Shown here one piece after another: positions 17,090-60,142 of a stretch of 64,000 nt of DNA. The stretch lies in assembly GCA_950295325.1 (NCBI GenBank), contig OX485806.1, positions 58,025,169 through 58,089,168 of the forward strand. The letters are read 5' to 3'. This DNA comes from Polytrichum commune (taxonomy: Eukaryota; Streptophyta; Polytrichopsida; Polytrichales; Polytrichaceae). Under the pieces are notes generated by a model that worked only from the letters and a program-made list of their open reading frames with translations, was not told where the DNA came from and did not search any database. How positions within the stretch are numbered: the first letter of the stretch is position 1; each line of letters starts with the position of its first letter. Both the position numbers and the translations under genes were made by a program.

Positions 17090-18000
17090 TGTGAGCCACA
17101 ATCACCCCCACCCTTCAATTACGTCCTAGTCCAAGTGGGAAATCATGTGCCACATCCTAAGACTAACCTTCTCATACGCTAGTACATATGCAATTCAATT
17201 GAAGTGGGAAAAGTGGTGTGCATAACACCCTTTATTCATGTGAATAGGTCCGATTTGCAAGTATTCACTAATACTTGCATTCCCTATACAACCCCCATGC
17301 CATGTAAGGCCTAGCCCATACTATGGTCCTACCTTATCATATGCTGCTTAATGCAACAACTGCACCGAACCGGTCCCCAGTGTTCCTCTGTCGTTGCCGA
17401 CGGCTCCCCACCAATTTACCTCCCCCTGCGGTCGGTGCCGAACTCTCGTCCTTGATGCCTAGTGATTCCAGTGTTTAGCCTGATTTCATTCACCCTTTTT
17501 AGCTTCAACCTTAATCGAATGAATCCTAACTTCTCCAACTGGTTACACCTCAACCACTACAACTCGAGCAGTTGGGTCGCCAATCGACTACTGGAGCCAA
17601 ACATTGTTCATCTGAAACCCAAAAATTGTGTAATCGCAGGTGCGACCTCACATGAATATATAGAGTATAAAGACAACAACCAGCAAAAGCCTGGAGCTGC
17701 GATATGTTCGGTAGCCTCACAAATTCCACATCTCCTCACCAGTCTCCGACCACGTTAAAGTCACGCTGAAGCCGAGAAGGGGAGAGTCTCCTCCTCGAGT
17801 ATTAGGAACAAGGAACGCCTCACCCACAACACCTCAATGTTTTGCCGCAACCCCTCCACCAATCTAATCTGGACGGTGTCATGCACTTGCGTCGTCAGTG
17901 TAGTTGTAAATGTAGTTTAGAGAACTGGAACTCCATTAAGAAGCTTGATATTCTCGCTCCGATCCCCTGGCTTGGTGGGTCACCAACATCTCTTTACTGT
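17090..18000 (-). mobile_element. gypsy LTR fragment truncating MULE 1
   Basis: On the plus strand a tRNA-like 3' end CTCCCGTCGGACGCACCA (17068-17085) is followed by ATTA and then TGTGAGCC. That is, on the minus strand, an LTR end, a short gap and a primer-binding site. The downstream stretch GGGAAAAGTGGTGTGCATAACACCC (17205-17230) recurs near 24855 and, inverted, near 62270, marking a shared LTR region. The left end of the internal part cuts into MULE 1 near 17000; the far LTR boundary (about 18000) is not defined. Confidence 0.5.
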
Positions 18001-24799: not shown

Positions 24800-26590
24800 C
24801 TTTCTTTAAACAACCAAGATCATCATTCACATGTGCAACTTTGTTCCATTTGATGGTGAGAAAAGTGGTGTGCATGACAGCCTTTTATTAACCTTTAGAG
24901 CATTCACAAACACTCGAGTCTCTAACAATGTCTCAAAGCACAACATCCAGCCATAACATTCTCTTCCTAAGTTTAATTAACCTACTCCCCCTCATTAACC
25001 CAAGCACTATCGCCTCCCTAGCTTCCCACGCTAAGCCGCATGACTTTTTAAGATTTCCCCTCTCCAAATACTCATCAATGGAGACTCATTCTCCCTTATT
25101 CTATAATATCCAAGTAGTCGAACAAGATGTAGCTGGTCCACCTTGCCGCATGTCTCAATCCTTGACCGACACTCTTGCTCCCTTTGCAGTCTTCACAATT
25201 GCACGCAATTTTGTTGTTTGGGTATTAAACTTCCACCAACCTCCTCCAACAAATCCTTCCTCCTACTTTGTGTGTCTTCAAAGATAGGTGTTGTAAAAAC
25301 AACTTACTTCTTGGCTAGCAAGTCTCACAAAGTTAAGAAAAATTGCATCGGTTGCAAAGCAATTGAGAATCGCAGTTAGAGCCTTCGCACATGATACCAC
25401 CACAGTTGTATGGGCGTCCTACGAAGGCAACCTTAGAGTCGGAGTCAACCCAGGTTCTGGGCCAAGTGCATAAGCCCTGATGGCTTGCCCATCCACACCC
25501 TTTGATGTTTCCTGGCCTTGGCTTCCAAAGAAAATGACCACCTGCAATTGTAGTCCCCCAGCAGCATTCTTAAGAATTGCAGCAACAGGTCGCAGAGCAG
25601 TGTGTTCTATGTCCTGGTATCGGGCTTCAGATGAGGTCTGCAGCTTCCTTTGGAGTGTAGCCTATCATTGCGGGATCACCTTCCAACTGCAGGTAATCTC
25701 ATTAAGCTATGCCTTGAACCCCCAATTTTTTGATTCCACTCTCTTAGTTCGAGCCTGAGCCTTCTTCGATAGAAGCCATAGCCTTTTCAATTAGGATGGG
25801 TGTCTCCTTTCTAAACCCATCGTGGATTGATGACTTTTGCAGAGTCCCATTGTCATCGATGGTTTCAACTCTCCTCGTGCGGATTTGAAGAAGCAATGTC
25901 GCAACGCCCCTCTCAAATTTTTGCAAGATTGCCACTGCCGTTGTGCTCTCCTTCCTGCCGCTAGAGAATAGAGGCAACTCCCGCACAATACGACACCCCG
26001 AGGCTATCCCCCGTGCTTCGTCTTCAGTTTAAAGATTGGGTTGTTCCCCAATTGTGGCCAAAAAGGAAATAACTTAAGCCTAACCAACCCCCCAAACTTA
26101 CACACACACAAAATGCCTCCACCACCCCGACCACAACGTCATGAAAAGATCCTACTCTACATAATTCTACCACCAAAATCAAATCAATCTTGTGCACACC
26201 CACCACCAACACAGTGGACCTACTTACTCCCTCACCGTCATCATCTTCAATTGCTCAGCATTTTCTTCGTCTTCATTTCATCACGAACTTAACCAAATCA
26301 CAATCATCCCATCTCCCTCTCCTAATCTTGCACTTCACAACTTGATGTTACCACCGTAATCGCAAGGACATCGCCGATAGAGCGTTCCACCCCGATCGAC
26401 TCCACAATTTGCTCCAGGTGTAGCTACCCCCTTCTTCCTTCCTTATTTCCTTATGATATGTGAAACAAGTTGTGCATCTCTGGCTAGTACAAATCCTAAG
26501 ATACAAGGCCTTCCCCATGTTATATCTAGTGATTAGGCGGTGGATGAAAAGGATCCTAAGTGTGTGTCTGTTTGTCTCAATATCGACCAG
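24800..26590. other. no gene recognised; LTR-like fragment at its left
   Basis: 24855-24920 carries the AAAGTGGTGTGCATGACAGCC stretch shared with 17210 and (inverted) 62270, so an LTR piece is present. The rest contains only short ORFs without motifs. Confidence 0.4.
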
Positions 26591-26593
26591 GAA

Positions 26594-26644
26594 ACTTAGT
26601 AGTGTGAGCGTAGAGCGGAGAGCGGAGAGTGGAAAATTTGAATT
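26594..26644 (-). repeat. shared element terminus at the 3' side of copy B
   Basis: On the plus strand GGAAACTTAGTAGTGTGAGCG is followed by repeated GGAGAG blocks and AAAATTT. The same sequence, inverted relative to this one, ends at about 52120 and 56299. Here it directly abuts copy B's truncated seventh exon. Confidence 0.7.
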
Positions 26645-29432
26645 ATGGTGGGAGTTGCCGTTGGACTTTCGACAACCGTGGTAGCTAGAACTGGAGTGCG
26701 TTGAACGCAGGCCTTGATGAAAGAACGGGTGGATACTTGACTGGAGGCCACCCTCTTGCCTTTGCCCTTGCCCTTCACTAGCGCAACCTCTTTGTCATTG
26801 GTGGGAGGAGCTGGATTCTCATCTTCGTCCGGCTCTTCCTCCAATTCACTTACCTTAGGGGCAGAGCAAACGAGGATGTTTTAGAAGGGTTCTTCTACGT
26901 CGGGAACAAATCCACGAGAACAATCCAAGTACCAACCACCAGCCACCAAATGCACGTGTGGAAATTTTGCAAGTTGCATGTGAGTGTACACACAAAGATT
27001 GGAGCTGTCATTGATCCAATCTTCAATGAATGACGGCAAGGACAAAGAAGGAAGAGAATTCTTTACGACAAGCTCACGGTGAATGTACCTACAAATTGAA
27101 GAACATGAGAATAAAAAAATAAAATGGAAATAGTGAAAACTAACGAAGATATTAAGAACAAAAGAAAAATGAAATATGATTAATCGTAAGCAACGCGCTT
27201 GATAGCTATGGGGCCTCCCTCAAATTCCATGAGATCGAGCCCTTTGGTGAACTTCAAGACTCCCTTGTCATCAAAATACACCTGAAAAACCTTGTCCCTC
27301 AAAATGAGCCTCCAATGCTCGACAAAATGAGTAGGTTGCAAAATATCTTCCGTAGAAACCCAGTCGATGTCGATGGAGCATTCATTTTCAAATGAGGTGA
27401 TCTCACCCTCAACCCCTTTCTCCAACTAAGATGAGACAAATATAAAGTTAGAAATCTAGTTGAACCTATCTACTCATACAATCTTTAAAACCTTGAATCA
27501 AAATCTGGTCCTAATGTCCTACCCAACACTATCAACCGAACCAGTCCACACATCTTCAGCCTATCTACACATACATAATAGACAACCATCAAGTCAAAAT
27601 CAAGTCCTACCAACCTCAAGCATGACCCTTTCGGATCCGAGAGGGTCGAATTCTAATGCATACCCAAACTATTTGACCGTAACAACCAAACTAGTCCACA
27701 CATCTTCAACCTATCTACACATACATAATACACAACATTCAAGTCAAAATCTGTTTCTACCATCCTCAACCAAGACCCTCTCGGATCCGAGAGGGTCAAA
27801 TTCTAGTGCATACCCAAACTATTTGAACATATCAACCGAGCTAGTCCACACATCTTCAACCTATTCACACATATATAATACACAACCATCAAGTCAAAAT
27901 CTGGTCCTACCAACCTCAACCAAAACCCTGTCGGAACCAAGAGGGTCGAATTCTAGTGCATACCCACACTATTTGAACATAACAACCGAGTTAGTTCACA
28001 TATCTACACATACATAATACACAACATTCAAGTCAAAATCTGGTCCAAACATCCTCAACCAAGACCCTCCCGGATCCAAGAGGGTCGAGTTCTAGTGCAT
28101 ACCCAAACTATTTGAACATAACAACCGCACTAGTCCACACATCCTCAACCTATCTACATATACATAATACACAACCATCAAGTCAAAATCTAGTCCTACC
28201 ATCATCAACCAAGACCCTCTCGATTCCGAGAGGGTTGAATTCCAGTGCATACCCAAACTATTTGAACATAACAACCAAACTAGTCCACATATCTACACAT
28301 ATATAATACACCACATTCAAGTCAAAATCTGGTCCGAACATCCTCAACCAAGACCCTATCGGTTCCGAGAGGGTGGGATTTTAGTGCATACCCAAACTAT
28401 TTGAACATAATAAACAAACTAGTCCACATATCTACACATATATATTACACAACCATAAAGCCAAAATCTAGTCCTACCAACCTCAACCATGACCCTCTCA
28501 GATCCGAGAGGGTCGAATTCTAGTGCATACCATAACTATTTGAACATAAAAACCAAACTAGTCCACACATCTTCAATCTATCTACACATTCATAGTACAC
28601 AACCTTCAAGTCAAAATCTGGTCCTACCATCGTCAAGAAGGTATTGGAGTACATATGCCCAAAAAGAAGCTTTGTGAAGCCAGTCATCGAGGACTTTCTC
28701 GCAAAGAGGGAGAGAAGAGGGGAACTTGTTTTTGGTTTTGACCTCGGCGGGGGAATTCCACCACCGAAGCCACCTAGCCTTAAAGGAAGCATCCACATGT
28801 GTAGTTGCCACCTTTTGGAGTTTCTCAATAGTCATATCCGAAACAAGGAAGGTGGAAAAATGACTGTCAATCTGCAAAATAAACTAGTGTAATGTAAGAA
28901 AATGTACTTAAAGCACAAGTGGAAAAACACGAAGGTGGAAGCAAATAAAAATTGAAGAGGTGAAGGGAGTACCTCTTGGAAGAAGTCATCGCTGTTGTCC
29001 TTGTGGGCGACGGAGATGAACTTTTCAAAGCTCCGAGATCGAAAACTTTTGATCAATCTATCTTTGGCTTTTGTCATAGCATCCCAAATCCCAAGAGCAG
29101 ATCTAAGAGCCTCGGGAGTGGCCTCGCAGTATAACCGTGCAGCAGTATCCGCCGATTTGGATATTTGTCTCTAAACAAACAGAAATGTGTGTAAGGATAA
29201 ATGCATAAAACATGAGGAAGGAAACAAACAAGAGCAAGGAGAAAAATTACCTTGTACAAGAACTTGACAAAGACACCCAATGTGAGGGGATATCAAGTAG
29301 AATTATTTTTCATCTTAGACTCGCACATCTTGTAGTCGTCAACTGAAATGAGGTCCTTGAAATCCTCAAGCTTCATTTTTCCAAATGTACGAATGCGAAG
29401 CAATTTGGTAGGGAGGTTGTCCTTAACATGGT
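26643..29432 (-). pseudogene. ParB-methyltransferase family gene, copy B (middle exons only)
   Basis: Minus-strand exons: part of the third exon (29432-29251), then 29170-28973 (198 nt), 28871-28653 (219 nt), 27425-27184 (242 nt) and 27088-26643 (truncated seventh). The third exon starts abruptly at HVKDNLP, joined to satellite DNA, so the ParB exon is absent. The sixth exon's donor is lost (ATTAAT for GGTAAT). The seventh exon has a TAC-to-TAA stop near 26880 and runs into the element terminus inside its Ser/Thr-rich segment (VESPTATPT). Intron 5 (27426-28652) is almost entirely dyad-bearing satellite. The region is the mirror of copy A's arrangement and faces MULE 2. Confidence 0.7.
27440..28640 (-). 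repeat. dyad satellite filling intron 5 of copy B
   Basis: Dyad cores start at 27624, 27774, 27924, 28063, 28213, 28352 and 28491. Spacings are 150, 150, 139, 150, 139 and 139 bp. The 139-bp units lack 11 bp (the CATCTTCAACC stretch). Each unit also contains TCAAGTCAAAATCTGGTCC, the complement of the GGACCAGATTTTG seen in the plus-oriented arrays of copies C and E. Confidence 0.9.
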
Positions 29433-29995
29433 CCTAATGTCCTACCCTTATACTATCAACCCAACTAGTCTACACAAGTTGAACCTATGTACACATACAA
29501 ACTTCACAACTTTGAAGTCAAAATTTAATGTCCTACCCCAAGACCCTCTCGGATCCGAGAGGGTGGAATTCTAGTCCATACCCAAGTCTTTGAACATATT
29601 AAAAAAACTATTTCACATTAGTTGAACCTATCTACACATACAAACATAAGAACCTCAACTTAAAATTTGGTCCTAATGTCCTACCCTCATATTATCAACC
29701 CAACTAGTCCACAAATATTGAACCTATGTACACATACAAACTTCACAAATTTGAAGTCAAAATATGATGATAATGTCCTACCCCAAGACCCTCTCGGATC
29801 CGAAAGGGTCGAATTCCAGTCCATACCCAAATATTTGAACATATCAAAAAAACTACTTCACACAAGTTGAACCTATCTACACATACAAGCATAAGAACCT
29901 CAACTCCAAATTTGGTCCTAATGTCCTAGCCTAACACTATCAACCGAGCTAGTCCACACATTTTGATCTTATTTACACATACAAGCTTTACAACC
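29433..29995 (-). repeat. dyad satellite upstream of copy B
   Basis: Units with cores at 29542-29565 and 29787-29810 and related sequence between. The array is joined directly to the broken third exon at 29432. Confidence 0.85.
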
Positions 29996-30835: not shown

Positions 30836-32990
30836 ATGGCTTCCTCATCCACTGTGCCATGTGTCTCAGAAATGGTTGAGCTCCATGCCAATGGCCTCGG
30901 AATCCCTATTATTTTCCCCGTAGATGCGAACGGTTTTGCATCTGTCTCTTACCTTCACCTTAGTATCAGGTTTTCATTGCAAGATAATACAATATGGATC
31001 GAACGCGATATTTATGATAGTGCTACGTCTTTGTTGTCATTGACCATGCGTGAGAATGAAGGGTTGTCGACAACGGATCTTCAATGTGGGAACTCTGCGC
31101 TGGTAAATACATAATGTACGAACGCGCAGATTCTTGCATGAATGTATCCACAGAAATTCGTACCCCTCCCCATTCCTCCGCTTCCATTTTAAACACTCCT
31201 CCCATGGTCAAAATTAAGATTGAACCCAAGATACACAATGTCATACATCTTTCTGATTCCTCGGATGGGGATGAGCCCCCTGTATCCACTCCCATTGACA
31301 AACCATCTTCATCCTCCCTCCGTTCCACCTTTGTTACCCCGCCTATTTTGTGTCCTTTTCCTCCATCCCCTGTCAAACCATCCATTTCCATTCTTCAATG
31401 TCTACGTACTCTTGCTTCCATGCCCGGTAGGAGAAACATCCTCAAGAAGCTAGATTATGACACCTTGCAAATTGAAGAGGTGAATTTCTTGCCGCCTCGC
31501 TTTGATGGGAATCGGATGTTTGCCCTCCCCCCAGTAGGCGTCTTGTCCTCTCATACGAAGGCCAAATCCATGGACGGCATGGACAAACGCTACGACAACC
31601 TTGTCTGGATCAAAACCCAAACCACCAACATTAGCAATGACTTAGGCCTTACTTTTCGCTCGTCCACCTGTGTTGGCCACCTCGAGTGTCACAATCCTCA
31701 TTGCGACTACCTCCAACGTGTTCATCGTACCTCCTCAGACAATGATATTGAATTCGATGAATTTACCAAAGAGCCCTTTCCCGTTGGTGGTCCCGTGCCT
31801 ATCTTCTCCACTCTGGTGTGCAAGATCTACAAGGAGCCACCCAAATGCATTGCACCATGTGTTGCCAAAATCTTCTACGTCCACAACAACGACACCACTC
31901 AACGGGCGTGCATTCATCTTGGCAATCATCGTCACCCCGTCAAGGTCGGAAATCGCAGGGATAGCCGCCAGCACATTGACGCCCTAATCGGGGAGCACAT
32001 CAAGCGAACGCCCCAAGCCACTCATAGCAAAATGAAGCTAGCAAGGACCTTGTGGGTGAGTTCCTCCTCCGCAATGATAAATGATCCCCAAAACAAGGTT
32101 ACTACTTTCAAATACTTACGTAGGTTAGGGGTTATAGATGGCATTGCCAAGCTTAGAGGTGTCAGCACATGGGCGTATGTCCAATGGAATCAATTCCTAG
32201 GCCAAGGTGACAAGACGGACAAAGTTTCGTTTTCAAGATGTCTGAGGTTGGCCCTGGTAGTGGGGTCGATTTGGTTAAGCACATGCAACCTGGCGGGGAT
32301 CTCGAGCATGCTTGCATCATGTCCGACCATGTCAAATACGTCGCCAATTGGACCACTATGGCCTGCCACGTGTACGACGGAACCTACCAGCGCGTTATGA
32401 CCATCATTTGTTGCGACTTCAATGCTCAAGTGCTTTTCTAGCATAACCTCAACCACGTCATGGCTCGCCATGGAATCCCCAAGCCTCACTTCAAAGTCTT
32501 CATGGCGGACAATGCACAAACCAATTGGAATGCCGTCAAGATTGTCTACCGGTTTGGAGATCCAAAGGTTCCCATCGATGGGCGTAAGAGAACCTCCTAT
32601 TTCTATTGGACCTAGTCTTTGGTGAAACACACCAAACTCTATATCAAACACGACTTGCAAGACCAACACAAACGTCTCTGCCTCCAGTATCGCGACGCAT
32701 CCTCTATAATGGAGGCAAAGACAAGGTACCTCGCCATCAAGGCTTGGTGGGCTTTTTCTAACTACACCTCCGAGGATGGAATGAAACACCTTCAACTTTG
32801 GCTCGCCTTCTAGCACTTCCGATATCCACAATGGGGTGGCTTCATGGTATCAGTGCATTTTTAGTGTTATTATTCTTTGTTTTCTGTTTTAGCTTTTCTT
32901 TTCCCAAGCTTTGCTTATTTCTTACACAACCATTCCATTGTTCAGGAGAAAATCATGTCCGCTGAGGAATTTGTACAAACAGCCAATTGC
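30836..32990 (+). pseudogene. MULE transposase, copy 2, truncated
   Basis: Starts MASSSTVPCVSEMVELHANG, homologous to copy 1. It retains LQDNTIWIERDI, where copy 1 has a 5-bp deletion. The zinc-finger region (CVGHLECHNPHC .. CKIYKEPPKC .. NHRHP) and transposase core (YDGTYQRVMTI, FMADNAQTNW) are present. Frameshifts occur near 31090 and 32230, and TGG-to-TAG type stops near 32440 and 32810. The CxxH position near 32600 reads TSYFYW with the His lost. A GT..AG intron equivalent lies at about 32847-32944. The exon carrying the catalytic Glu is cut at about 32990 by chromovirus sequence. Confidence 0.75.
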
Positions 32991-45767: not shown

Positions 45768-46990
45768 GGTGTGTTTTGTATGTATATGTATGTGGATTAG
45801 CTTGGGTCTTATGTTGAAATTCTTTGTGTATGCACTAGAGTCGGACCCTCTCGGATCCGAGAGGGTCTAGGGTGTGGTAGTATGGACCTGATTTTGACAT
45901 GAATGAGGTCCTTTGTGTATGCGTATGTGTATGTATGTGGACTAGCTTGGTTCTTATGTTGAAATTTTTTGGATTCCACTCGATTCCGACCCTCGCGGAA
46001 CCGAGAGGGTCTAGGGTGCGGTAGTATGGACCAAATTTTGACTAGTATGAGGATCTTTGTGTATGTGTATGTATGTGAACTAGCTAGGTTTATATTTTGA
46101 AATTTTTTGGATTCCACTGGAGGCCGACCCTCTCGGATCCAAGAGGGTCTAGGGTATGGTAGTATGGACCAGAATTTTGACAAGAATGAGATCCTTTCTC
46201 TTTGTGTATGTACGTGGACTAGCTTGGGTCATATGTTGAAATTTTTTGTGTATGCACTAGAATCCGACCCTCTCGGGTCTTGGGTGGACGTTGTGAGGAC
46301 CAGATTTTGACTAGAAAGAGGTCCCTTGTGTATGTGTATGTATGCGGACTACCTAGGTTCATATGTTGAAATTCTATGTGTATGCACTAGAGTCTGACCC
46401 TCTCGGATCCGAGAGGGTCTAGGGTGTGGTAGTATGGACCTGATTTTGACAAGAATGAGGTCCTTTGTGTATGTGTATGTATGTGGACAAGCTTGGTTCT
46501 TATGTTGAATTTTTTTGGATTCCACTCGATTCCAACCTTCGCGGAACAGAGAGGGTCTAGGGTGCGGTAGTATGGACCATATTTTGACTAGTATGAGGAT
46601 CCTTGTGTATGTGTATGTATGTGAACTAGCTAGGTTCATATGTTGAAATTCTTTGTGTGTGCACTAGAATCACACCCTCTCGGATCCGAGAGTGTGTAGG
46701 TTGTGGTAGTATGGACCAGATTTTGACAAGAATGAGATCCCTTGTGTATGTGTATTTATGTGAACTAGCTTGGGTCATATGTTTAAATTCTTTGTGTATG
46801 CACTCGAATCCGACCCTCTCTGGTCTTGGGTGGCGGTTGTGTGGACCAAATGTTGATTAGAAAGACGTCCCTTGTGTATGTGTATGTATGTGGACTAGCT
46901 TGGTTCTTATGTTGAAATTCTTTGGGGATGCACTAGAGTCCGACCTTTTCGTAACCGAGAGGGGCTAGGTGGCGGTTGTTCGGACTAGCT
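45768..46990 (+). repeat. dyad satellite upstream of copy C
   Basis: Dyad cores at 45844, 45988, 46126, 46266 (half), 46396, 46534, 46673, 46812 (half) and 46942. Four consecutive unit types repeat with a period of about 547-552 bp, a higher-order repeat. Each unit has the core, TCTAGGGTGTGGTAGTATGG, ACCAGATTTTGAC, then GTGTATGTGTATGTATGTGG. It ends at the acceptor of copy C's first exon. Confidence 0.92.
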
Positions 46991-48531
46991 CTTTACTTGA
47001 GGTTCTAAAGCTTGTAGGTCTGATTTTTTGCAGGGATCACAATCCATTAACCTAATGATCACGGAGGCACCCATTATGGAGGACTATAATGTTCCATTGG
47101 AGGTTCCTGTGGTACCTGTTGATGCACCTATTGCAACCGATTCTTTGCGTCCTCTTGATGAGTCCAACCCAGAAGAGACTGAGCTCTTGATTCGGAGATC
47201 ATAGAAAGAGGACTCTAATGTTGTGATACACTGGGTTCAAATCAAACCCCTTCTTAAGTCGCGTTTCTCTATCCCACTATGCCGCTTGCGTTGTCTTCCA
47301 CTTGTTCATCTCATCAACGAGGTTGATGTCGCTCGGTTGGAAAATGAGTTCGTCATGGGGTACCGTGACGGTGACCGAGCCTTGTATATCTCTCCCTACA
47401 ACAACCTCAATGAGGTACTCGATGTCTCCGATGACATCCACAATTCTTGGAGTTCATTATGGCAAGAGGCCAATGAGGAATTCGACGCCATGCTCCAAAA
47501 TGACCTTGACCTTGCTCACCTTTCTGGCAAGATGTTCTACGTGTGGGAGGGTAACCATTGTTTGTCGGCTTGGTGGAGGCACATCAATAAGCATCACTCG
47601 TTGGATAAAGATTGGCACATCTCTGTTGACTGTATTGTCGTGGATCCAAGAAATTCCACCGCGGTCTTCTTAAATGCCATGAATGACATCAATTGGTAAG
47701 TTCAATTTTTTTTTCTTGTTTTTTTCCATCGTTTTGTGATGCATTGTTTCTTTGATTCTCATTACTTTGATTTTTAGGTCCACAGAGCATGATCATGTTC
47801 AGGACAACCTCCCTGTCAAATTGCTTCGCATTCGTACATTTGGAAAAATAAAGCTTGAGGATTTCTCCGACCTCATTTTGGTGGATGACGACAAGATGTG
47901 CGAGTCTAAGATGGACAAAAATCCTACTTGGTATCCTCTCACATTAGATGTCTTCGTCAAGTTCTTGTACAAGGTAATTTTACTCTTTGCTCTTGTTTTT
48001 TCCTATCCTCATTTTCTATGCATTTATCTTTACTCACATCTCTGTTTGTTCAGAGAGAGATATCCAATGCGGCGGATACTGCTGCACGGTTGTACCGCGA
48101 GGCCACTTCCGAGGCACTTAGATCTGCTCCTGGGATTTGGGACGCTATGACAAAAACCCAAGAAAGATTGATCAAAAGTATTCGATCTCGTAGCTTTAAA
48201 AAATTCATCTCCGTCGCCCACAAGGACAACAGCGATGACTTCTTCCAAGAGGTACTCCCTTCACCTCTTCACTTTAATATTTTCTTCCACGTTCGTGTTT
48301 TTCCGCTTAAGCTTCAAGTATATTTTCTTACATTGCACTAGCCAATGTTGCACATTGACCGTCATTTTTCCATCTTCCTTGTCCCTGATATGACTATTGA
48401 GAAACTCCAAAAGGTGGCAACTACAGATGTGGATGCTTCCTTTAAGGCTAGGTGGCTTCAATGGTGGAATTCCCCCGCCGAGGTCAAAACCAAAAACAAG
48501 TTCCCCTCTTCTATTCCCCTTTTTACAAGAA

Positions 48532-48780
48532 TGAGGTCCCTTGTGTATGTGTATGTATGTGGACTAGCTTGGGTCATATGTTGAAATTTTTTGGATTGCA
48601 CTAGAATCCGACCCTCTCGGCACCGAGAGGGTCTAGGGTGCGGTAGTTTGGACCAGTTTTTTACTTCAATGAGGTTCCTTGTGTATGCATATGAAGGTGG
48701 TCTAATTGGATTCATATGTTGAAATTCTTTGTGTATGCACTACAATCCGACCCTCTCGGACTCACTTTTTGTTTGTGTTA
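48532..48780 (+). repeat. dyad satellite replacing the end of exon 5 and intron 5 in copy C
   Basis: At 48531 the exon KFPSSIPLF changes into ACAAGAATGAGGTCCCTTGTG, a satellite unit, with cores at 48610-48633 and a half core at 48749. In copies A, B, D and E the exon continues with 14-15 more codons (LREKVLDDWL). The array therefore invaded or recombined into the exon. Confidence 0.88.
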
Positions 48781-49857
48781 TATTAGTTGGAGAAAGGGGT
48801 TGAGGGTGAGATCGCCTCATTTGAAAATGAATGCTCCATCGACATTGACTGGGTTTCAATGGAAGATCTTTTCCAACCTGCTCATTTTATAGAGCATTGG
48901 AGGCTCATTTTGTGGGACAAGGTTTTTCGAGTATATTTTGATGACAAGGGTGCCTTAAAGTTCACCCAAGGGCTCGATCTCATGGAGTTCAAGGAAGGCC
49001 CCTTAGCTATCAAACGCGTTGCTTATCGTTAATCATTTTTTTCTTTTTTTTTGTCCTTCATATTTTCTTTTCTTTTCACTCCATTTATTTGTTCTAATTT
49101 TCTTCACTTTGTGCGTACATTCACCGTGAGCTTGTTGTAAAGAATGTTCTTCCTTCTTCGTCCTTGCCGTCTTTCCTTGACGAGTGGATTGATGACAACT
49201 CAAATCTTTGTGTGTACACGCCCATGCAACTTGCAAAATTTCCACGCGTGAATTTGGTCGCTGGTGGTTGGTACTTGGATTGTTCTTGTGGATTTGTTCC
49301 CGACGTAGAAGAACCCTCTACAACAACCTCGCTTCCTCTGCCCCTGAGGTAATTGAATTGGAGGAAGAGTCGGATGAAGATGAGAATCCGGCTCCCCCCT
49401 CCAATTACAAAGAGGTTGCACCAGTGAAGGCCAAGGGCAAGGGTAAGAGGGTGGCTTCTAGTCAAGTGTCCACCCGTTCTTTTACCAAGGCCTCTGTTCA
49501 GTGCACTCCAGCAACCACAGTTGTTGGAAGTCCAATGGCAACTCCTTCTGCCCCTTCTTGGAACCTTACTCCTGCTCCTTCCCAAAGCGGTGTCACCATT
49601 CCCTCCGTACCGCGCAAGAGGAAGGCCATTGCTTCGGATACCTCCGCAACAGCTTCGGAGAAGTCGTCTTCTCTCTCTTTGATTGAGAATGTCGACATGG
49701 GAGAGCTCATAGAGGATCTCATGCGGTCCAAGGTTCCCCCTCCGGCTTACCGCCGCATCCAAGAATTCATTACTAAGGTTTGTGCAACATTCTATTGTTT
49801 TCCAGTTCATTCATTCTAATTGTTTTCTTATATTTTTCTTTGGATTTTAATTTGCAG

Positions 49858-50869
49858 GTTGGAGGGGGTCATACTCGTCCTAATACCAAGCCTAAGGTGC
49901 ACACAGGGCTTGATCTACTCTTCGCAGATGTTTCGGAGAACCTCTGTGTACCAGACATCTTGTCATCATTGTCCGATGTTCCTCAATGGAACAAGTGTTC
50001 TTCGACTTACTTTGAGGTTCTCTTTGCCTTTGCTAAGGCCAACCTTCATGACGACGACGTTCTTGTCTTTGCACACACCGTTGATCCTGACGTGTCTAGA
50101 TCTATACATAATTGGGCACATACAGAGTACTTTTACGTTGCTGAAGACTGGTTTGGCATGAATGACCTCGACCTCCAATCGCCTACTAATCCATTTCAGT
50201 TGGTAATTCCTTTCTTGCCTCATCTTTTTGTGTTCTTATTTCTTTTTCCTTGCATTTTTGTATTCCTAATTCTACCCTTCTAATTTTTTTCAGACTCGCA
50301 AGTTCTTCATTAAGGTGCTCGTGCGTAATGATTTTGTTTTGAATGTCTGGACCTCAGACTCCGAAGACATGGGTTACAATCTCAAAAGAGATGGTTGGCT
50401 CAAAAGCTTCGCCGATTTGAAGAACGAGTCGTTGAGAGAATACGGAGTGCCTTGGAGAGGTGTTCGTGAAAAGCGCCCCGAATTCTTCTCCATCCTTTTC
50501 TCCGCCCTCACGGACAATGACGACATTATCATGGATTGGCAATGTGGCCTTGGTTGGTTTTTCTTCTCCTTGTTTCTCATGACTTTGTTCTTTATTGTTT
50601 TTTTTTTTACTTGTTCCATTTCCCATTCATTCTCTTATGCTCACATTCTTGCATTTCGTTCTTCTAGGAGGTTCCATCATTGCATGTCGATCCATTCAAC
50701 GGCATATTGTGGTGTTTGAGTCGGATATCGACATTTTCAAGTCCATGCTCCTCCCCATGCATGGGACTGAGCAAGAACATACTTCTCAGTATGCTGCCCC
50801 ACAACGAGGATCGGTTTTTGCTCCTCCTTCCGTGAAGATGGCGAAGTGCAATTTCGATTTGCTGTGTGC
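49858..50869 (+). CDS. methyltransferase-like exons of copy C
   Basis: Three exons, all with GT..AG borders and open frames: 49858-50202 (115 codons), 50294-50552, and 50668-50869. In beta-class DNA methyltransferases the order is catalytic DPPY, a strand after LkpgG, W-x-K, then D-P-F-x-G-x-G. Here the order is FADVSEN, LHDDDVLVFAH, EDWFGMNDLDL, then MDWQCGLGGSIIACRSI. The catalytic DPP is absent in both C and D (D reads FANVFEN), so an enzymatic role is doubtful. Fold assignment rests on motif order and is moderately sure. Confidence 0.5.
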
Positions 50870-51129
50870 GTAAGTTCGTTCTTGGCTTCTTCCTTGCTTA
50901 CTTGCATTTCTATCTTTTCAGAACGGAATTTTTGGCTTGTGCTCATTTTTTTGTTTCGTCTTCGTATATGTGCAGAGTTCAAAATGAGAGCCCGATTCGT
51001 GTCCTGAATGCGGACATGTTTGCAACCCCTTCGAGCAAGGCGAGGATAGTGAGTGACATGGTAGTCGAAGTTCTTGACTATGCTTCGTGCGTTTGGAACC
51101 TCCATCTCCTATATATTGTTTATGTTTGA

Positions 51130-52120
51130 GTTTTTATAAGTTCATTTGTTGAAATTCCATGTGTTTTTTGCAAACCTCATTCAACTCCTTCTTCATCTTA
51201 TGTTGTTGTTTGTTTTCAATTGCTCTTGAAGGTTGAAGGCTTGTATTAATTTTGTACATATGTTCAACTTGTTAGTTGATAGGTTCAACTACTTTGTTGT
51301 TTGGCTGGAATTTGACCCTCTCGGAACCGTATGGGTCTTAGTGTAGGAATCAAGGACGAGATTTAAGATAGGTTCGGGTGGATGGGGTTGTAACTTTTTA
51401 GGTCAAGTTGACATTTCTCAAGTTAAGGTGTTGGGCAATGTATCAGAAGGTCTAAGAATACTTGGAAAGAGTACCCTAGCTACTTGGGGCAATGTATCAT
51501 TTTGGACGAAAGCACTTAAGTTCATTTAAGGGCTATTTCACATACGAGCCAAGAGCCGTGACCATGAATTGTGAGAGCCCACGAGAAAATGTCCAAAGGC
51601 CGTCCCAAGACACCTCCAAAATTATATAGTGTGTTCACGGATTTCCAAGTGTAGTGTGAAGCCATATGTGACCAGGCCCTCAATCAAATGCTATTTCAAT
51701 GGATTTCTATTCATGCGAGTCTTCATACATGATAAAAACAAAATAAATCAACGGTTGTGAATATTCGGTATGACAGGGTCTTTTGATTTTGTATTGGGCG
51801 GATTCTTATGTTGTTGTTCGATTTCAATTGATGACGTCAGCCCTAATTTAATATGAAATCATTTGAAACCTAGACTATAAGATCTTTGATAACAAATACA
51901 TTCTTCCACGCCTTTAGGTTCTACTTGTTTCTCACCCTAAAATGAGTTATAATCTCCACGGGAATGGGGTGCCTTTCCAACAAATTGAATTCACTCTATC
52001 TATAAATTCCACGGAAATAGGCAATGTTTGTCCTAAAATTATCCAACAAAGTCGAAAATTTTTGCTCTCCAATTTCCACTCTCCACTCTCCGCTCTCCGT
52101 TGACACTACTAAATTTCCCC
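51130..52120 (+). mobile_element. 3' region and terminus of the copy C element
   Basis: Non-coding DNA homologous to 54960-56299 after copy D. One dyad unit lies at 51314-51337. A block with ACTTGGAAAGAGTACCCTAGC near 51450 is shared with D's 55920. The last about 290 bp (51828-52120) match 56015-56299 and end in GACACTACTAAATTTCCCC. The next base begins copy D's broken exon, so this is taken as an element end. Confidence 0.6.
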
Positions 52121-52124
52121 GTTC

Positions 52125-54955
52125 CTCACAAGGACAACGGCGAAGATTTCTTTCTTGAGGTGCCTCCTTTGCCCTGTTTTTTTATTTTTTTACTTTCATT
52201 TTCTTGTTTTCGTTGTACTTTGTGTCTTGTTTCTTACATGACACTATTCTTCTTTGTAGATTGACCGTCATTTTTCTCTTTTTCTTGTGACGGACATGAC
52301 TATCGAGAAACTTCAAAAGGTGGCCACCACACATGTGGATGCCTCCGTCAAGGCTAGGTGGCTTCGGTGGTGGAACTCGCCCGCCGATGTCAAAACCATA
52401 AACAAGTTTCCTACTGCTCTTCCATTACGCGAGAAGGTCCTCGATGACTGGCTTCATAAGGCTTCGTTCTGGGCACAAGTACTCTAATCCATCATTCTTT
52501 TGTTTTGTTTTTTTTGTTTTGTTCTTTGTCATTTCTAACTTTATGTTTGTCTTTTTTTAGTAGGAGAAGGGGGTTGAGGCTAAGATCGCCTCCTTCGAAA
52601 ATGAATGCTCGATCGACGTGGACTGGGCTTCTGCGGAGGACGTCATGCAGCCTGCTCATTACGTCAAGCATTGGAGGCTAGTTCTATGGGACAAGGTTTT
52701 TCGTGACGAGAAGGGAGAGTTCAAGTTTACCAAAGGTCTTAACCTCATGGAATTTCAAGAAGGCCCCATAGCTATCAAACGCATCGCTTATCGGTAATGT
52801 TTTATTTTTTCTTTTTGTTCTTCATATACTCATTTTCTTTTCCCTTTTCCCATTCCATTACCGCTTTCTCATGTTCTTCAATTTGCAGGTACATTCACCG
52901 TGAGCTTGTCTTCAAGAATTCTTTTCTTTGTTCATCTTTGCCTTCATTCCTTGAAGATTGGCTCGATACGAGGTACAGTCATTGTGTGTATACTCTCATG
53001 CAGATTACCAAATTTCCATGCGCGCACTTGGTCGCAGGTGGCTGGTAGTTGGACTGTTCTCGTGGATTCGTACCCGAATTTGAGGAACCACTTTACAGCA
53101 ACCTCGTTTCTTCTACCTCGGAGGTAATTGAACTGGAGGAGGAGCCGGAAGAAGACGAGATCCAACCTCCTCCCACCATTGTGAAAGAGGTTAGGTCCGC
53201 AAAGGGTAAGGGTAAAAAGCTTGTCCCCCATGCCTCTTCTCAAGTTTCTACTCGTTCTTACACCAAGGCTTCCGTTCAACGGACTGTTGCTCTAGCCACC
53301 ATCGTGGTTGAAAGTCCAACCGCCACTCCTTCTGCACTTGCCCCCGACCCGGTACCTGCTACTTCCCATAGCGGCGCAACCATCCCATTGGTACCTCGCA
53401 AAAATAAGGTTGTTGCACCGGATACATCGGCAACTTCCTCGGAGAGGTCATCTAGCCTTTCATTGATTGAGAATGTGGACATGAAAGAGCTCATTGAGGA
53501 TCTCATGAAGACAAAGATTCAACCTCCCACCTACCGCCGCATCCAAGAATTCATAACCAAGGTTTGTATGCCGATCTCTAGCTTTATCCTTTCATTCCTT
53601 AGACTTCAACATTTGTTTTTTTGTTATTGATTTTGTTTGCATATTTGTTTCTGAAGTTGGAGCAAGGCATACTCGTCCAAACACCAAACCTACGATTGAC
53701 ACGGACATTGACATACTCTTTGCAAATGTGTTCGAGAACCTACGTGTGCCTAGCATCTCGGCCTATTCTTCGGATGTTCCTCAGTGGAACAAGCGGTCTT
53801 CCACTTACTTCGAGGTTTTGTTTGCCTTTGCAAGTGCCAACCTCCATGACAACGGCGTCCTTGTCTTCGCACACGCCGCTGATCCTGAGGTCTCTAGATC
53901 AATTCACAATTGAGCACACACTGAGGAATTCAACGTTGCCGAAGATTGGTTTGGCATGAATGACCTCGATCTCCAATCGCCCACTAATCCTTCTGAATAG
54001 GTAATTCCTCTTCAGCTTCATCCATTTTCATTCTTACCTTATTTCTTTCATTTATGTATTCCTAATTCTACCGTTCATTTTTTTTGTACAGACTCGCAAG
54101 TTCTTCATCAAGGTGCTTATTCGTAATGAATCTGTTTTGAATGTCCGCACCTTGGAGTTCCAAGATATGGGTTACAATCTTAAGAGAGATGGTTGGCTCA
54201 ACAGCTTCGTTGATGCGAAGAACCAGTCGATGAGGGAAGCTGGGGTGCCCTAGAGAGGTACTCGTTAGAAACGCCCCGATTTCTTTTCCATCATTTTTTC
54301 TGCCCTTACGGACAAGGATGACATTATAATGGATGGGCAATGTGGCGTTGGTAATTTCATCTCCTTATTTCTCATTTTGATTTTTCTTTTCTAGTTCTTT
54401 CGTTTCTTTTTGTTCATTTTTCGTGCATTTCCATATACTCACCTTTGCGCATTTGGTTGTACTAGGAGGTTCCGTCATTGCATGCCGCTCCATTCAACGA
54501 CATATTGTAACTTTGTAGTTGGACATCGACATCTACAAGTCCGTCCTCCTTCCCATGCGTGAGGCCGACCAAGAACACACCTCTCAGCACGTGGCCCCCC
54601 AACGAGGCTCAGTTTTTTCTCCTCGTCCTCGGAAGATGGCGAAGCGCAATTTTGATTTGCTGTGTGCGTAAGTTCGTTATTGGCTTCGAACTTGCTTTCT
54701 TTCATTTCTATCTTCTTGGTTCGAAGTTGTTGGCATGGGCTAATGTAATTTTATTCTCGTCCTGTATGTTCACAGTTCAAAATGAGATCCCGATTTGCGT
54801 CCTTACCGCAGACATGTTTTCAACGCCTTCAACGACATTCGAGCTCCCTTCCTATGCTACTGGGCTTGCCAATATTTTGGCGGAAGCACCGTCCCCACCT
54901 TCTATTCGCACCTGTCCTTTCAACAAATTAATATTGGATTATCTATAGATAGAGA
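52125..54955 (+). pseudogene. ParB-methyltransferase family gene, copy D (5' truncated)
   Basis: Exons: 52125-52159 (tail of the fourth), 52260-52478 (219 nt), 52561-52793, 52889-53561, 53657-54000, 54092-54350, 54466-54667 and 54776 to about 54955. The ParB part is missing. Stops: TAG 52561 (TTG elsewhere), TAG 53046 (TAC elsewhere), TGA near 53911 (TGG), TAG at 53998, two near 54250-54270, and one near 54510. The sixth exon lacks codons for VYFD, but its donor (GTAATG) is the only intact one. Intron 5 is short (82 bp) with no satellite, unlike A, B, C and E. D carries a C-terminal segment (TTFELPSYATGLANIL..) that copy C lacks. Confidence 0.7.
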
Positions 54956-56299
54956 CCGAGGAGGGCAAGGATAGTGATAGACATGGTAGTCCTAGTTGTT
55001 GACTACGCCTGGTGTGTTTCAGACCTCCATCCCATATGTATTGTTTTTGCTAAAATGATTTATAATTTTATTTGTTAAATTTCCATGTGCCTTTTGTTAA
55101 CCTCATTCAATCCCTTATTCATGTTAGGTTGGTGTTTGATTTCAATTCTCTAGATAGGTTTGGGTGGACGGGTTGAATATACTTTGGAGATTGTCTAGTT
55201 TAGTTGTACTTGAGAGAACCTAAGGTTGTGAGTGACTTTGAATGGTTTGAATGTTTTTGTTAAGGTTTAGCTCTCGGCCACATTTTAGTTAGGTTGGATT
55301 CATATGATATATGTGTCTCATTTTGTAACCGATTGGGGTTGGCGCATCAGGTTGGGGAAGATCCCGCCAATCCCACGTGATGGAGCCACTTGTATTGTAT
55401 CTGGACGCCGATATACAATTGAAAGTCTTTGTTCCAAACTTGTTGGTGGGTGCCGCAAAGGTGGATATGGATGCAGAGACGGCATTGGACACCCAACTCC
55501 GTTTGTTGCTAATCCACAATTTGAGGCTATCTTGCAAAACATGGATAACGATTGTGGATAAAAGTGTGGAGTACAGTTCGCTTCGTTTGGCTCAATATGA
55601 ATACGCCATGTGTCCCTATGATGTCATAAGGTTGTGTTTGCCACGCGAACATAACCTCATCACTCAATTTCAACAGAACTTGATGTGGTTCTCACGTAGC
55701 CGCCACGTCAGCTCAAAAATTTCGCGGAGGATTCTTATGTCGTACTTGGGGGATTTGTCATTGCGGAAATTGGCTAAGCTAAGGGATGAATTGGGAATGT
55801 CATTCTGTGCGGTGGAGTTCTATGGCATGAGCTTTCATCCCGGTGCACCATATTGGATCTCCCGGCCGATAGGGTGTAGATGCATGGAACTTGAGAATTA
55901 TGGAGATCTAAGCGTACTTGGAAAGAGTACCCTAGCTACTTGGGGCAATGTATCAATTTTTAAAAAAATTAAGTACACTTATGAGATGTTGATGTTCATC
56001 ATATGTTGATGTTTGTTTTCAATTGCTGACGTCAGCCCTAATTTAATATGAAACCATTTGAAACCTAGACTATAAGATGTTTGATAACAAATATAATCTT
56101 CCACGCCTATAGGTTCCGTTTGTTCCTCGAACAAGGTTCGGTTATTATCTCCACGGGAATGGGGTGCCTTTCCAACAAATTGAAGACATACTATCTATAA
56201 ATCCACGGAAATAGGCACTGCTTCTCCTAAAATTACCCAACAAATTTAAAATTTTCCGCTCTCCATTCTCCGCTCTACGCTCACACTACTAAGTTTCCC
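54956..56299 (+). mobile_element. 3' region and terminus of the copy D element
   Basis: Colinear with 51130-52120 but longer. It contains the unknown ORF at 55304-55970, then the conserved last about 285 bp ending CACACTACTAAGTTTCCCC. Copy E's array follows immediately at 56300. Confidence 0.6.
55304..55970 (+). pseudogene. unknown ORF in the 3' region of the copy D element
   Basis: Two overlapping frames make one plausible coding run: 55304-55561 (RDGATCIVSGRRYTIESL .. NPQFEAILQNMDN) and, after a shift near 55560, KSVEYSSLRLAQYEYAMCPYDVIRLCLPREHNL through ENYGDLSVLGKSTLATWGNVS. The end matches a remnant at 51450-51500 behind copy C. Composition looks protein-like (balanced, few low-complexity runs), but no family is recognised. 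It could be a further exon or a separate gene of the element. Confidence 0.4.
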
Positions 56300-57965
56300 C
56301 TTTGTAATTGGAATAGAGTGGACCCTCTCGGTTCGAAGAGGGTCTTAATGGAGGAATGTAGGACGAGATCTTGAACTTGAAGGTTGAAAGCTTGTATGTG
56401 TATATAGGTTGGAGTAGTTGGTATATAGGTTGGACCACTTTGTAAGTGGAATGGATTGGACCCTCTCGGTTCCGAAAGGGTCTATGTGGAGCAATTTAGG
56501 ACCAAATTTTGCACGGGGAGGATGAAAGCTTGTTAGGGTATATAGGTTGGAATACTTTGTAATTGGAATGGACTGGACCCTCTCGGAACCGAGAGGGTCT
56601 TAGTGGAGGAATGTAGGACCTGATTTTGAACTTGAAGGTTGAAAGCTTGTATGTGTATATAGGTTGGAATAGTTGGTATATAGGTTGGACTACTTTGTAA
56701 GTGGAATGGATTGGACCCTCTCGGTTCCGAAAGGGTCTATGTGGAGCAATTTAGGACCAGATTTTGCACGGGGAGGTTGGAAGCTCGTTAGGGTATATAA
56801 GTTGGACTACTTTGAAAGTGGAATGGATTGGACCCTCTCGGTTTAAAGAGGGTATATGTGGGGCAATTTAGGACGAGATTTTGCACGGGGAGGTTGAAAG
56901 CTTGTTAGGGTATATAGGTTGGACTATTTTGTAATTGGAATGGAATGGACCCTCTCGGTTCCGAGAGGGTCTTAGTGGAGGAATGTAAGACCAGATTTTG
57001 CAATTGAATGTTGAAGGCTTGTTTGTGTATATAGGTTGGACTACTTTGTAATTGGAATGGAGTGGACCCTCCCGGTTCGGAGAGGGTCTTAGTGGAGGAA
57101 TGTAGGACCAGATTTTGAACTTGAAGGTTGAAAGCTTGTATGTGTATATAGGTTGGACTACTTTGTAAGTGGAATGGATTGGACCCTCTCGGTTCCGAGA
57201 GGGTTTATGTGGAGCAATTTAGGACCAGATTTTGCACGGGGAGGTTGAAAGCTTGTTAGGGTATATAGGTCGGAATACTTTGTAATTGGAATGGAGTGGA
57301 CCCTCTCGGTTCCGAGAGGGTCTTAGTGGAGGAATGTAGGACCAGATTTTGCACTTGAATGTTGAAGGTTTGTTTGTGTATATAGGTTGGACTAGTTGGT
57401 AGATAGGTTGGAGTACTTTGTAATTGGAATGGAGTGGACCCTCTCGGTTTCGGAGAGGGTCTATGTGGAGGAATGTAGGACCTTATTTTGATCTTGAAGA
57501 TTGAAAGCATGTTTTTGTTTATAGGTTGGACTAGTTGACAGATAGATTGGAGTACTTTGTAAGTGGAATGGATTGCACCCTTTCAATTCCGATAGGGTAT
57601 ATGTGGAGCAATTTAGGACCTGATTTTGCACGGGGAGGTTGAAAGCTTGTTAGGGTATATAGGTTGGAATACTTTGTAAGTGGAATGGATTGGACCCTCT
57701 CGGTTCCGAGAGGGTCTTAGTGGAGGAATGTAGGACCAAATTTTTCAATTTCATGTTGAAAGCTTGTATGTGTATATAGGTTGGACTACTTTGTTAGTGG
57801 AATGGATTGCACCCTTTCGGAACCAAGACGGTCTATGTGGAGGAATGTAGGACCAAATTTTGATCTTGAAGGTTGAAAGCTTATTTGTGTATATAGGTTG
57901 GACTAGTGTGTATGTGGAGTGGATTGGACCCTCTGCGTTCCGAGAGGGTCTTAGTGGAGCAATTT
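56300..57965 (+). repeat. dyad satellite upstream of copy E
   Basis: Fourteen cores start at 56320, 56459, 56576, 56714, 56831, 56948, 57065, 57182, 57299, 57437, 57575, 57693, 57809 and 57927. The unit is 117 bp, with 138-bp variants carrying an extra 21-bp block (GTTGGTATATAGGTTGGA type). Each unit continues TCTTAGTGGAGGAATGTAGG and ACCAGATTTTG, homologous to the copy B and C units. Confidence 0.95.
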
Positions 57966-58067
57966 AGGAACCGAGAGTTTCATTGGATAGGAAGTAGGAC
58001 GAGAATAAGCATGCATGTGTAGATAGGTTGAACTAGTGTGAACTCATGGTGTCTTGAATTTGTACAG

Positions 58068-59816
58068 GGATCACAATCCATGGATCTCATTCTATCGGAG
58101 GAGCCATCAATGGAGGAACACAATGTTCAATTGGAGGTTCCTGTGGTATGAATTGGGGCAATGCTTCATCTATTTTGTCAATATATGTTTCATTTATTGC
58201 ATTCCCTTTTTCTCTTTGATTTTGAAACATCGCCTCGGGTTGTTCGTGTTTTGAATTTTTTGGCCACTACTGAATGTTTTTGTTGCTACATTTGCAGAAT
58301 GATGCACTTGTTGGAACCGACTCTTTGCGTCCTCTTGATGAGTCCAACCCAGAGGAGACTGAGCTCTTGATTCGGAGATCGCAAAAAGAAGATTTTAATG
58401 CTGTGATTCACCGGGTTCGAATCAAGCATCTTCTTAAGTCGCGTTTCTCTATCCCATTGTGTCGCTTGCGATGTCTTCCACTTGTTCATCCCATCAACGA
58501 GGTTGATGTCGCTCGGTTGGAAAATGAGTCCGTCATGGGTTACCGTGACAGTGATCGAGTCTTGTATGTCTTTCCCTACAACAACATTAATGAGGTACTC
58601 CATGTCTCTGATGACATCCACGGTTCTTGGAATTCATTATGGCAAGAGGCCAATGAGGAATTCGAAGCCATTTTCCAAAATGATCCTGACCTTGAACACC
58701 TTTCTGGCAAGATGTTCTACGTGTGGGAGGGTAACCATTGTTTGACAGCTTGGTGGAGGCACATAAATAAGCATCACTCGCTCGATAAAGATTGGCATAT
58801 CTCAGTTGACTGTATTGTCGTGGATCCAAGAAATTCCACCATAGTCTTCTTGAATGCCATGAATGACATCAATTGGTAAGATGAGCTTTATTTTCCTTGT
58901 TTATTTTCCTTGTTTCTTATCCGTGTTTCTATGATTCTCATTACTTTGTTTTTTAGGTCCACGGAGTACGACCATGTCAAGGACAACCTCCCTGCCAAAT
59001 TGCTTCGGATTCGGACATTTGGGAAAATGAAGCTTGAGGATTTCAAGGACCTCATTTCTGTTGACGACTACAAGATGTGCAAGTCCAAGATGGAAAAGAA
59101 TCCTACTTGGTATCCCCTCACATTGGATGTCTTCGTCAAGTTCTTGTACAAGGTAATTATGCTCCTTGATCCTATTTGTTTCATTCGTCATGTTTTATGC
59201 ATGTATCCTTACACACAATTATGTTTATTGTAGAGAGAGATATCCAATTCAGCGGACACTGCTGCACGGTTATACTGCGAGGCCACTCCCGAGGCTCTTT
59301 GATCTGCTCTTGGGATTTGGGATGTTATGACCAAAGCACAACAAAGATTGATCAAAAGTATTCGATCTCGGAGCTTCGAAAAGTTCATCTCCGTAGCACA
59401 CAAGGACAACGGCGATGACTTCTTCCAAGAGGTTCTCCCTTGACATCTTCAATTTTTATTTGCTTCAACCTTCATGTTTTTGAAGTCGTGCTTTAGGTTT
59501 TAGGGTTTAAGGTTCAATTTTTATTTGCTTCAACTTTTGTGTATTTGAACTCGTGCCTTATGTATATTTTCTCACGTAACATTATTTTATTTATCAGATT
59601 GACCGTCATTTTTCCACCTTGTTTGTCTCGGATATGACTATTGAGAAACTCCAAAAGGTGGCAACAACACATGTGGATGCTTCCTTTAAGGCTAGGTGGC
59701 TTCGGTGGTGGAATTCCCCCGCCGAGGTCAAAACCAAAAACAAGTTCCCCTTTTCTCTTCTTCTTCGCGAGAAAGTCCTCGATGACTGGCTTAACAAAGC
59801 TTCTTATTGGGCACAA
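58068..59816 (+). pseudogene. ParB-methyltransferase family gene, copy E (5' five exons in window)
   Basis: Exons 58068-58145 (ATG at 58080), 58298-58875 (578 nt, ParB-like), 58957-59152 (196), 59234-59431 (198) and 59598-59816 (219), all GT..AG. A clean intron (58146-58297) separates the first two exons, absent from copy C. One stop is seen: AGA to TGA at 59300 in the fourth exon. The ParB box is VWEGNHCLTAWW. Intron 5 begins at 59817, carries dyad satellite and an LTR insertion, and is still satellite at the window end, so exons 6-11 should lie beyond 64000. Confidence 0.75.
58298..58875 (+). CDS. ParB-like domain exon of copy E
   Basis: Same length as copy A's exon (2175-2752) and open throughout. 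FSIPLCRLRCLPLVHPINEV and VWEGNHCLTAWWRHI are present. The Arg of the GNHR box is Cys (CGN to TGT), a CpG-type transition shared with copy C. Confidence 0.6.
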
Positions 59817-59929: not shown

Positions 59930-60142
59930 AGGACCAGATTTTCCTCTTGAAGGTTGACAGCTTGTTTGTGTGGATAAGTTCAACTAGTTGGGTGTCAGGT
60001 TCAACTCATTTGTTTTGGGGTTGGAATTTCACCCTCTCGGAACCGAGAGGGTCTTAGGCTAGGATTATAGGACCTGATTTTGCACATTAATGTTGAAAGC
60101 TTGTATGTGTACATAGGTTGAAATAGGTGGCTGATAGGTCCA
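59930..60142 (+). repeat. dyad satellite in intron 5 of copy E (left part)
   Basis: Core at 60029-60052, then TCTTAGGCTAGGATTATAGG and ACCTGATTTTGC. The array is interrupted at 60143 by an LTR and resumes at 63576. Confidence 0.88.

Follow-up and report, generated by a model that had tools for sequence, protein, structure and literature searches.

The window, a stretch of 64,000 nucleotides from the moss Polytrichum commune (assembly GCA_950295325.1, contig OX485806.1, positions 58,025,169 to 58,089,168), contains five copies (A–E) of a multi-exon gene whose predicted product joins a ParB-like N-terminal half to a methyltransferase-like C-terminal half. This gene is the second, passenger gene of a large DNA transposon and not a host gene. 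The copies were located by tblastn with the exon peptides of copy C as queries, and exon lengths and most GT-AG borders are common to those compared, which bears out the initial annotation on the number of copies and their conserved exon structure. Copy C (47034–51129, plus strand), mapped by tblastn and splice borders, comprises exons 0–11, which sum to ~1050 amino acids; the ParB-like exon 1 lies at 47205–47695 and the methyltransferase-like exons 8–11 at 49858–51129. Copy A (1–2977, minus strand; tblastn span 2752–1) is a mosaic represented by exons 0–6, with exon 1 at 2665–2174, and extends beyond the left edge of the window, its exons 6–10 being found in L042. Copy B (26590–29433, minus strand; tblastn span 29433–26647) is truncated to exons 2–7 and ends at the right end of its element (GGAAACTTAGTAGTGTGAGCG...). 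Copy D (52120–56299, plus strand; tblastn span 52260–55048) runs from the tail of exon 3, the only part of exons 0–3 present, to exon 11 and includes the right end of the element, and copy E (58068–59816, plus strand; tblastn) consists of exons 0–4 only.

All five window copies are damaged. Copy C is a pseudogene: an in-frame stop occurs at 47202–47204, the acceptor ahead of exon 4 has been lost, and the frame is broken from exon 6 to exon 7. Copy D, also a pseudogene, has five stops within its matched exons, copies B and E have a single stop each (exons 2 and 3, respectively), and copy A, as judged by comparison, is put out of frame by 1 nucleotide close to where exon 4 ends. A sixth copy, immediately right of the window, is damaged as well. 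Pairwise Nei-Gojobori estimates on ungapped exon comparisons gave ratios of nonsynonymous to synonymous divergence (dN/dS) of 0.10–0.22 in all seven pairs of copies with dS >0.3 (e.g., 0.14 for A–C at a dS of 0.94, and 0.22 for C–D); thus, the lineage behind the damaged copies was probably under purifying selection on its deeper branches. The ratio is higher in the two recent pairs (B–C, 0.47; B–E, 0.35).

The fold test assigned exon 1 to the ParB/Srx α+β fold. A GNHR motif, which we take to be the GxxR-type pocket motif of ParB, is nearly invariant in the family (G in 92/94, N in 94/94, H in 94/94, and R in 81/93 sequences). The motifs quoted in the initial annotation are present, VWEGNHR-T-AW being the reading of copy A, with NHC in copies C and E. 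Its assignment of a ParB-like domain is thus upheld by fold and motif but not by sequence-level searches: no Pfam family, including the two to which it had pointed (PF02195 and PF01555), matched three pieces of copy C or the family consensus at E ≤10, and the score of exon 1 against ParB in the hhalign profile comparison fell inside the null, leaving the ParB similarity undetected by that route. Public genome and metagenome contigs contain 184 homologues of the exon-1 part, with no Pfam domain in the 120 listed. Among viral and prokaryotic contigs, which were searched with exon 1 and not with the methyltransferase part, 20 and 15 candidate stretches, respectively, were obtained and none was confirmed.

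Exons 8–10 are colinear over 198 columns with the methyltransferases of phage ParB-methylase fusions, with motif IV before motif I. The hhalign comparison with these fusions gave an E value of 1.2e-4 (its score of 39.5 exceeding the 26.6 reached at most by the null). With the methyltransferase part alone the E value was 2.5e-5, whereas the ParB part, cross-compared, yielded 0.36. All three PHROG matches of the family consensus were methyltransferases (E of 0.0015, 0.028, and 0.22). Motif I, DWQCGVG, is retained (first glycine, 33/33; second glycine, 30/31), as is the acidic residue after strand 2 (E, 27/30). N6/N4 methyltransferases follow the catalytic rule [D/N/S]PP[Y/F/W]. DPPY or DPPW is present in eight of the ten comparison proteins, but the family has D[V/I]PE instead (D 39/42, P 37/42, and E 36/42 at the aromatic position). 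The permuted methyltransferase-like domain of the initial annotation is supported by the profile match, without the catalytic DPPY. Searches against the PDB sequences returned M1.HpyAVI as the best match, at E values of 0.23 and 0.29, and one designed peptide at 2.4. A model of the methyltransferase part, whose query (P0001) carried intron read-through, reached a predicted local distance difference test (pLDDT) score of 52, and Foldseek gave four rows for it, all with E >4. Homologues of the C-terminal part number 68 at E ≤1 in public genome and metagenome contigs; they are mostly one- or two-exon frames, and no Pfam domain was found among those listed.

The initial annotation, correct about the domains, was incomplete about their context. 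In the 408-Mb genome, exon 1 of copy A yielded 1275 first-look candidates; 150 were scored, and every one proved to be a match, spread across seven large contigs plus a single small one. Four LEAFY-domain matches, in a family not known outside streptophytes, together with the seven large contigs agree with a land-plant host, and a moss with n = 7 would fit. Eight of these places, on C1 to C5, tie in score, and two of the tied loci, on C4 and C3, are 99.1–99.2% identical in two blocks totaling 13.8 kb. The copy at C3 8.69 Mb is complete, with a length of 16,664 bp, inverted ends, and a perfect 10-bp target duplication (CTCGGGTGGG). Inverted ends and a perfect 10-bp target duplication (GTTCATTTGA) also delimit the copy at C4 30.63–30.65 Mb. 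Such a duplication was not found in five further copies tried, namely those at C4 4.77 Mb and C3 55.75 Mb, for which an element end lies outside the stretch compared, copies A and C of the window, which have no second flank copy, and copy D, whose flank recurs only within the neighboring array. Elements are nested within the window: at 52119/52120, the copy C element, whose right terminus (52100–52119, plus strand) reads ...TAAATTTCCC, adjoins the exon-3 tail of copy D, and at 56299/56300 copy D in turn meets the array of copy E with its right end. As a separate observation, of the 150 exon-1 places that were scored, 43 fall within C4 41–59 Mb, an 18-Mb stretch representing ~4% of the genome; this clustering perhaps reflects a low-recombination or sex-linked region.

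The left half of the element carries the other gene, on the opposite strand, in a stop-to-stop frame of 766 codons. This gene has 153 homologues at E ≤1, with no Pfam domain in the 120 listed. By eye, its product shows a conserved D followed by a conserved C-x2-H motif, and also a CxC stretch resembling SWIM, presumably features of a Mutator-type transposase. The gene looks like that of a Mutator-type transposase, but Pfam does not bear this out: none of 40 members matched the MULE (Mutator-like element) transposase profile PF10551 at E ≤10. When the 150 listed exon-1 places were paired with the 150 listed transposase places, 83 of the former had a transposase within 20 kb, in divergent orientation in 82 of the 83 and at a median distance of 8.4 kb. 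By comparison, 500 random placements gave a mean of 0.71 pairs and 500 circular shifts a mean of 0.63, with a maximum of 5 in either case.

Between the two divergent genes lie tandem arrays of a palindrome. The type-1 palindrome, GACCCTCTCGG-NN-CCGAGAGGGTC, occurs at 32 sites of the window at ≤3 mismatches, compared with none in 100 shuffles. It builds arrays upstream of copy C (45777–46976, plus strand, ~139-nucleotide units), upstream of copy E (56300–57970, plus strand, 117–139-nucleotide units), and within intron 4 of copy B (27525–28636, minus strand). Palindrome-bearing repeats, with a site at 48610, also replace the original sequence at the end of exon 4 and in intron 4 of copy C (48522–48786, plus strand), and another such repeat lies at the intron-4 position of copy E (59930–60142, plus strand). 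Three type-1 palindromes with 1–3 mismatches separate copy A from its transposase-like gene (6216–7230, strand not assigned). The complete C3 element carries a type-2 palindrome, GAGGCCTCGGATCCGAGGCCTC, and the inner CTCGGATCCGAG is common to both types. Genome-wide, the two types account for 850 and 1903 perfect sites, one count per type, whereas the backwards patterns have none. Perfect sites are situated 6.3–11.3 kb from the left end of the complete element, and some copies have additional palindromes, both within intron 4 and beyond the downstream end of the gene. Gene copies were present at four of the five palindrome places inspected. At the remaining one (L033 4368–4689, C1 29.64 Mb), three type-1 palindromes have no gene copy within ~4–5 kb (9.9 kb examined); they may represent a solo array or a derivative without the gene. 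A centromeric function of the palindromes was considered and dropped, as the copies are scattered across each of the seven large contigs. Other repeats were noted nearby: 64-nucleotide tandem repeats with GGCCA motifs at 511–1193, where they lie within intron 4 of copy A and lack the type-1 palindrome, and at 6129–6861, upstream of copy A. A further palindrome, C[C/T]CACGGGTGAACACCCGTG[A/G]G, appears three times between the arrays of the type-2 element (L044 1392, 1462, and 1857).

The palindrome type appears to track the N-terminal half of the protein, represented by exon 1, and not the transposase or the methyltransferase half, because three comparisons point the same way. First, eight loci picked by exon 1 alone all had palindromes, of the type matching their exon-1 clade (six of type 1 and two of type 2). 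In an exon-1 tree of 17 loci, including the copies that defined the types, two fully supported clades were recovered; type 1 lies upstream in 12 of the 13 members of one clade, the thirteenth offering only 900 nucleotides to inspect, and type 2 in all four members of the other. Second, the mosaic copy A carries type-1 palindromes. Its exons 1–5 are 74–88% identical to four type-1 copies and 50–71% to the type-2 element, exon 6 is intermediate (61% vs. 65–67%), and exons 8–10 are 81–87% identical to the type-2 element and 47–64% to type-1 copies. Third, the transposases are discordant with the palindrome type. A listed transposase lies within 20 kb at five of the eight loci picked by exon 1; those of the type-1 loci L050, L051, L053, and L054 match the transposase of the type-2 element at 97–98% identity, whereas the one at the type-2 locus L056 does so at 84%. 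Depending on the part compared, the copy A transposase shares 73–95% identity with its type-2 counterpart, and the partner of copy B shares 54–76%.

The likely role of the protein is sequence-specific self-recognition: it would recognize and act on its own element via the palindromes, both the binding and the function being what we infer. Anti-silencing of the VANC kind, by analogy, is perhaps part of it. A fuller model, which we put forward as possible though not probable, is a transposon-run eukaryotic module similar to ParB-parS. The ParB-like half would load on element-specific palindromes between the divergent promoters and spread, the methyltransferase fold, binding S-adenosylmethionine but not methylating, would tune or block host DNA modification, and the protein half and the array would be swapped jointly as a specificity cassette. 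If true, this joint exchange would let new transposon lines evade cross-recognition. Several points limit the conclusion that the N-terminal half reads the palindromes. The array adjoins exon 1, so that linkage alone could yield the match of types; several of the 17 loci in the tree are near-identical and stand for fewer independent events; and array B has no core excess, its core arms and nearby flank being conserved alike (0.93/0.93).

The adjacency and array B, together with the tandem nature and variable copy number of the arrays, would also fit a reading in which array and exons 1–5 travel together by adjacency only, the palindromes being self-propagating minisatellites homogenized by replication slippage or gene conversion. 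Homogenization is expected to act over the whole unit, yet in the complete element the core of 33 sites is 99.3% conserved compared with 64% for the flank, the choice of these sites by core likeness (≤3 mismatches) favoring the core figure. The core arms are likewise ahead of the nearby flank in array A (0.92/0.67), array C (0.96/0.86), and array E (0.96/0.90). Window arrays with diverged flanks retain the same core: against array E, the array consensuses, two of which are single sites, agree at 19–23 of 24 core positions, and their 60-nucleotide flanks are 31–60% alike in the better orientation. Given this balance, we regard the minisatellite explanation as unlikely.

For the algal proteins, the proposal is that the ParB-like domain directs an active N6-adenine or N4-cytosine methyltransferase to the element; according to the available parts of PMC12477816, the protein would bind and modify its own transposon sequence. 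For the moss protein, the retained motif I and acidic residue and the homology across the whole methyltransferase fold speak for such an enzyme. Its D[V/I]PE tetrad, set against the DPPY/DPPW of most comparison proteins, speaks against it, and we consider activity rather improbable.

Transposases of many DNA transposons bind internal repeats, and the arrays are positioned between both genes; they might thus be transposase binding sites for transposition, to which the ParB/methyltransferase-like gene is unrelated. The discordance between palindrome type and transposase at the five loci named above is difficult to reconcile with this explanation, as are the distance of the arrays from the left end of the complete element and their additional occurrence in intron 4 and downstream; it is therefore quite doubtful. 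An ordinary plant gene family that multiplied through duplications, both tandem and dispersed, while minisatellites arose by chance, would accommodate the introns, the low dN/dS on deeper branches, and the clusters in the window, but it is already contradicted by the element ends, the two 10-bp duplications, the near-identical copies on different chromosomes, and the divergent pairing with one transposase family, and is extremely improbable.

Several known systems resemble the moss element in part. The giant transposon Sola1-1_Ec32 of Ectocarpus (21.5 kb) has an accessory gene for a 1104-amino acid ParB-methyltransferase, and the available text of PMC12477816, citing Iyer 2011 and Petroll 2025, reports similar proteins in green and red algal transposons. 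By description of the algal protein rather than by sequence, the likeness extends to protein size, both domains in one gene, the strand opposite the transposase, and a large DNA transposon (PMC12477816). The moss element differs in its land-plant host, many introns, and degenerate catalytic motif, and its palindrome arrays and subtype-specific palindromes have no counterpart in the portions of PMC12477816 at hand. Its transposase, with a 10-bp duplication, is probably of another kind. Sola transposons make 4-bp target duplications. Mutator-like elements, in turn, have target duplications of 8–11 bp as far as PMC6446971 was available; the 10-bp duplication is in that range, and the inverted ends, the extra open reading frame, the C-x2-H after a conserved D, and the SWIM-like CxC are further likenesses. 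Differences are the missing Pfam MULE match in 40 members and the short ends rich in CGGAGAG repeats.

The VANC anti-silencing proteins of the Arabidopsis VANDAL transposons target motifs that are borne by tandem repeats, differ between related transposons, and are located within accessory-gene introns as well as ahead of the transposase gene (PMC5735166, available in part). Both systems thus comprise a second protein encoded by the transposon and repeat-borne target motifs in the same kinds of places. VANC, however, is built of DUF1985/DUF287 domains and its motifs (YAGTATTAC/T) are short, whereas the moss pieces match no Pfam family; the parallel, drawn by analogy, is a likeness in working, not membership. 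Transposable elements carrying DNA methyltransferase genes are also described in the accessible part of PMC5890265, which covers retrotransposons of dinoflagellates and charophytes with DNA methyltransferases (DNMTs), and DIRS elements with adenine methyltransferases of the Dam-like type. These are retrotransposons with other methyltransferase types, and no ParB-like domain is mentioned in that part.

Phage ParB-N6/N4 fusions (L001, L004, L008–L014, and L017; PHROGs 498 and 67) have the same domain order as the moss protein, with motif IV before motif I, and are colinear with it over exons 8–10. The moss protein lacks sequence-level ParB similarity and DPPY, and has a long middle region (exons 2–7) and introns. 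Bce_0392 is another ParB-N6/N4 methyltransferase fusion, named in the part of PMC5512222 available. Two small contigs of the assembly, L001 and L002, carry bacterial or phage ParB genes; that at L001 1468–2799 encodes a 443-amino acid fusion of ParB and N6/N4 methylase and is probably a contaminant.

ParB-methylase accessory genes of transposons are, as such, already known from what is available of PMC12477816. The initial annotation knew of no described plant family; our literature search likewise found no account of such genes in land plants, nor of their palindromes, and PMC12695648 makes no mention of ParB, but the algal genes had been reported before. As far as the literature searched shows, the land-plant host, the different transposase, the introns, the palindrome arrays, the cassette swap, and the degenerate catalytic motif are new. 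Bacterial-type ParB-methylase fusions are thus carried by DNA transposons in a land plant. Their candidate cognate sites number in the thousands, the palindromes come in two subtype-specific forms, and a swap that occurred naturally points to the reading half. This turns a curiosity of domain architecture into a directly testable system for transposon self-recognition and perhaps resistance to silencing. If the binding is true, the protein would be a palindrome-specific eukaryotic DNA binder of the ParB type.

Transposase-like genes accompany two copies in the window. Divergent from copy B is a gene at 30854–32846 (plus strand), 54–76% identical in amino acids to that of the C4 4.77-Mb element. 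In the copy A element, the N-terminal and DDE-like part of the gene lies at 8073–9998 (plus strand; 73–89% amino acid identity to the C4 4.77-Mb element) and the C-terminal part at 15443–17129 (plus strand; 91–95% in amino acids over 15443–16370 and 90% in nucleotides over 15444–17022). The two parts are split by a Ty1/copia-type retrotransposon at 10405–14256 (minus strand), with gag, integrase, and reverse transcriptase frames recognized by eye. Beside it lies a near-perfect (96%) 120-bp tandem repeat of 5.8 copies at 14314–15011.

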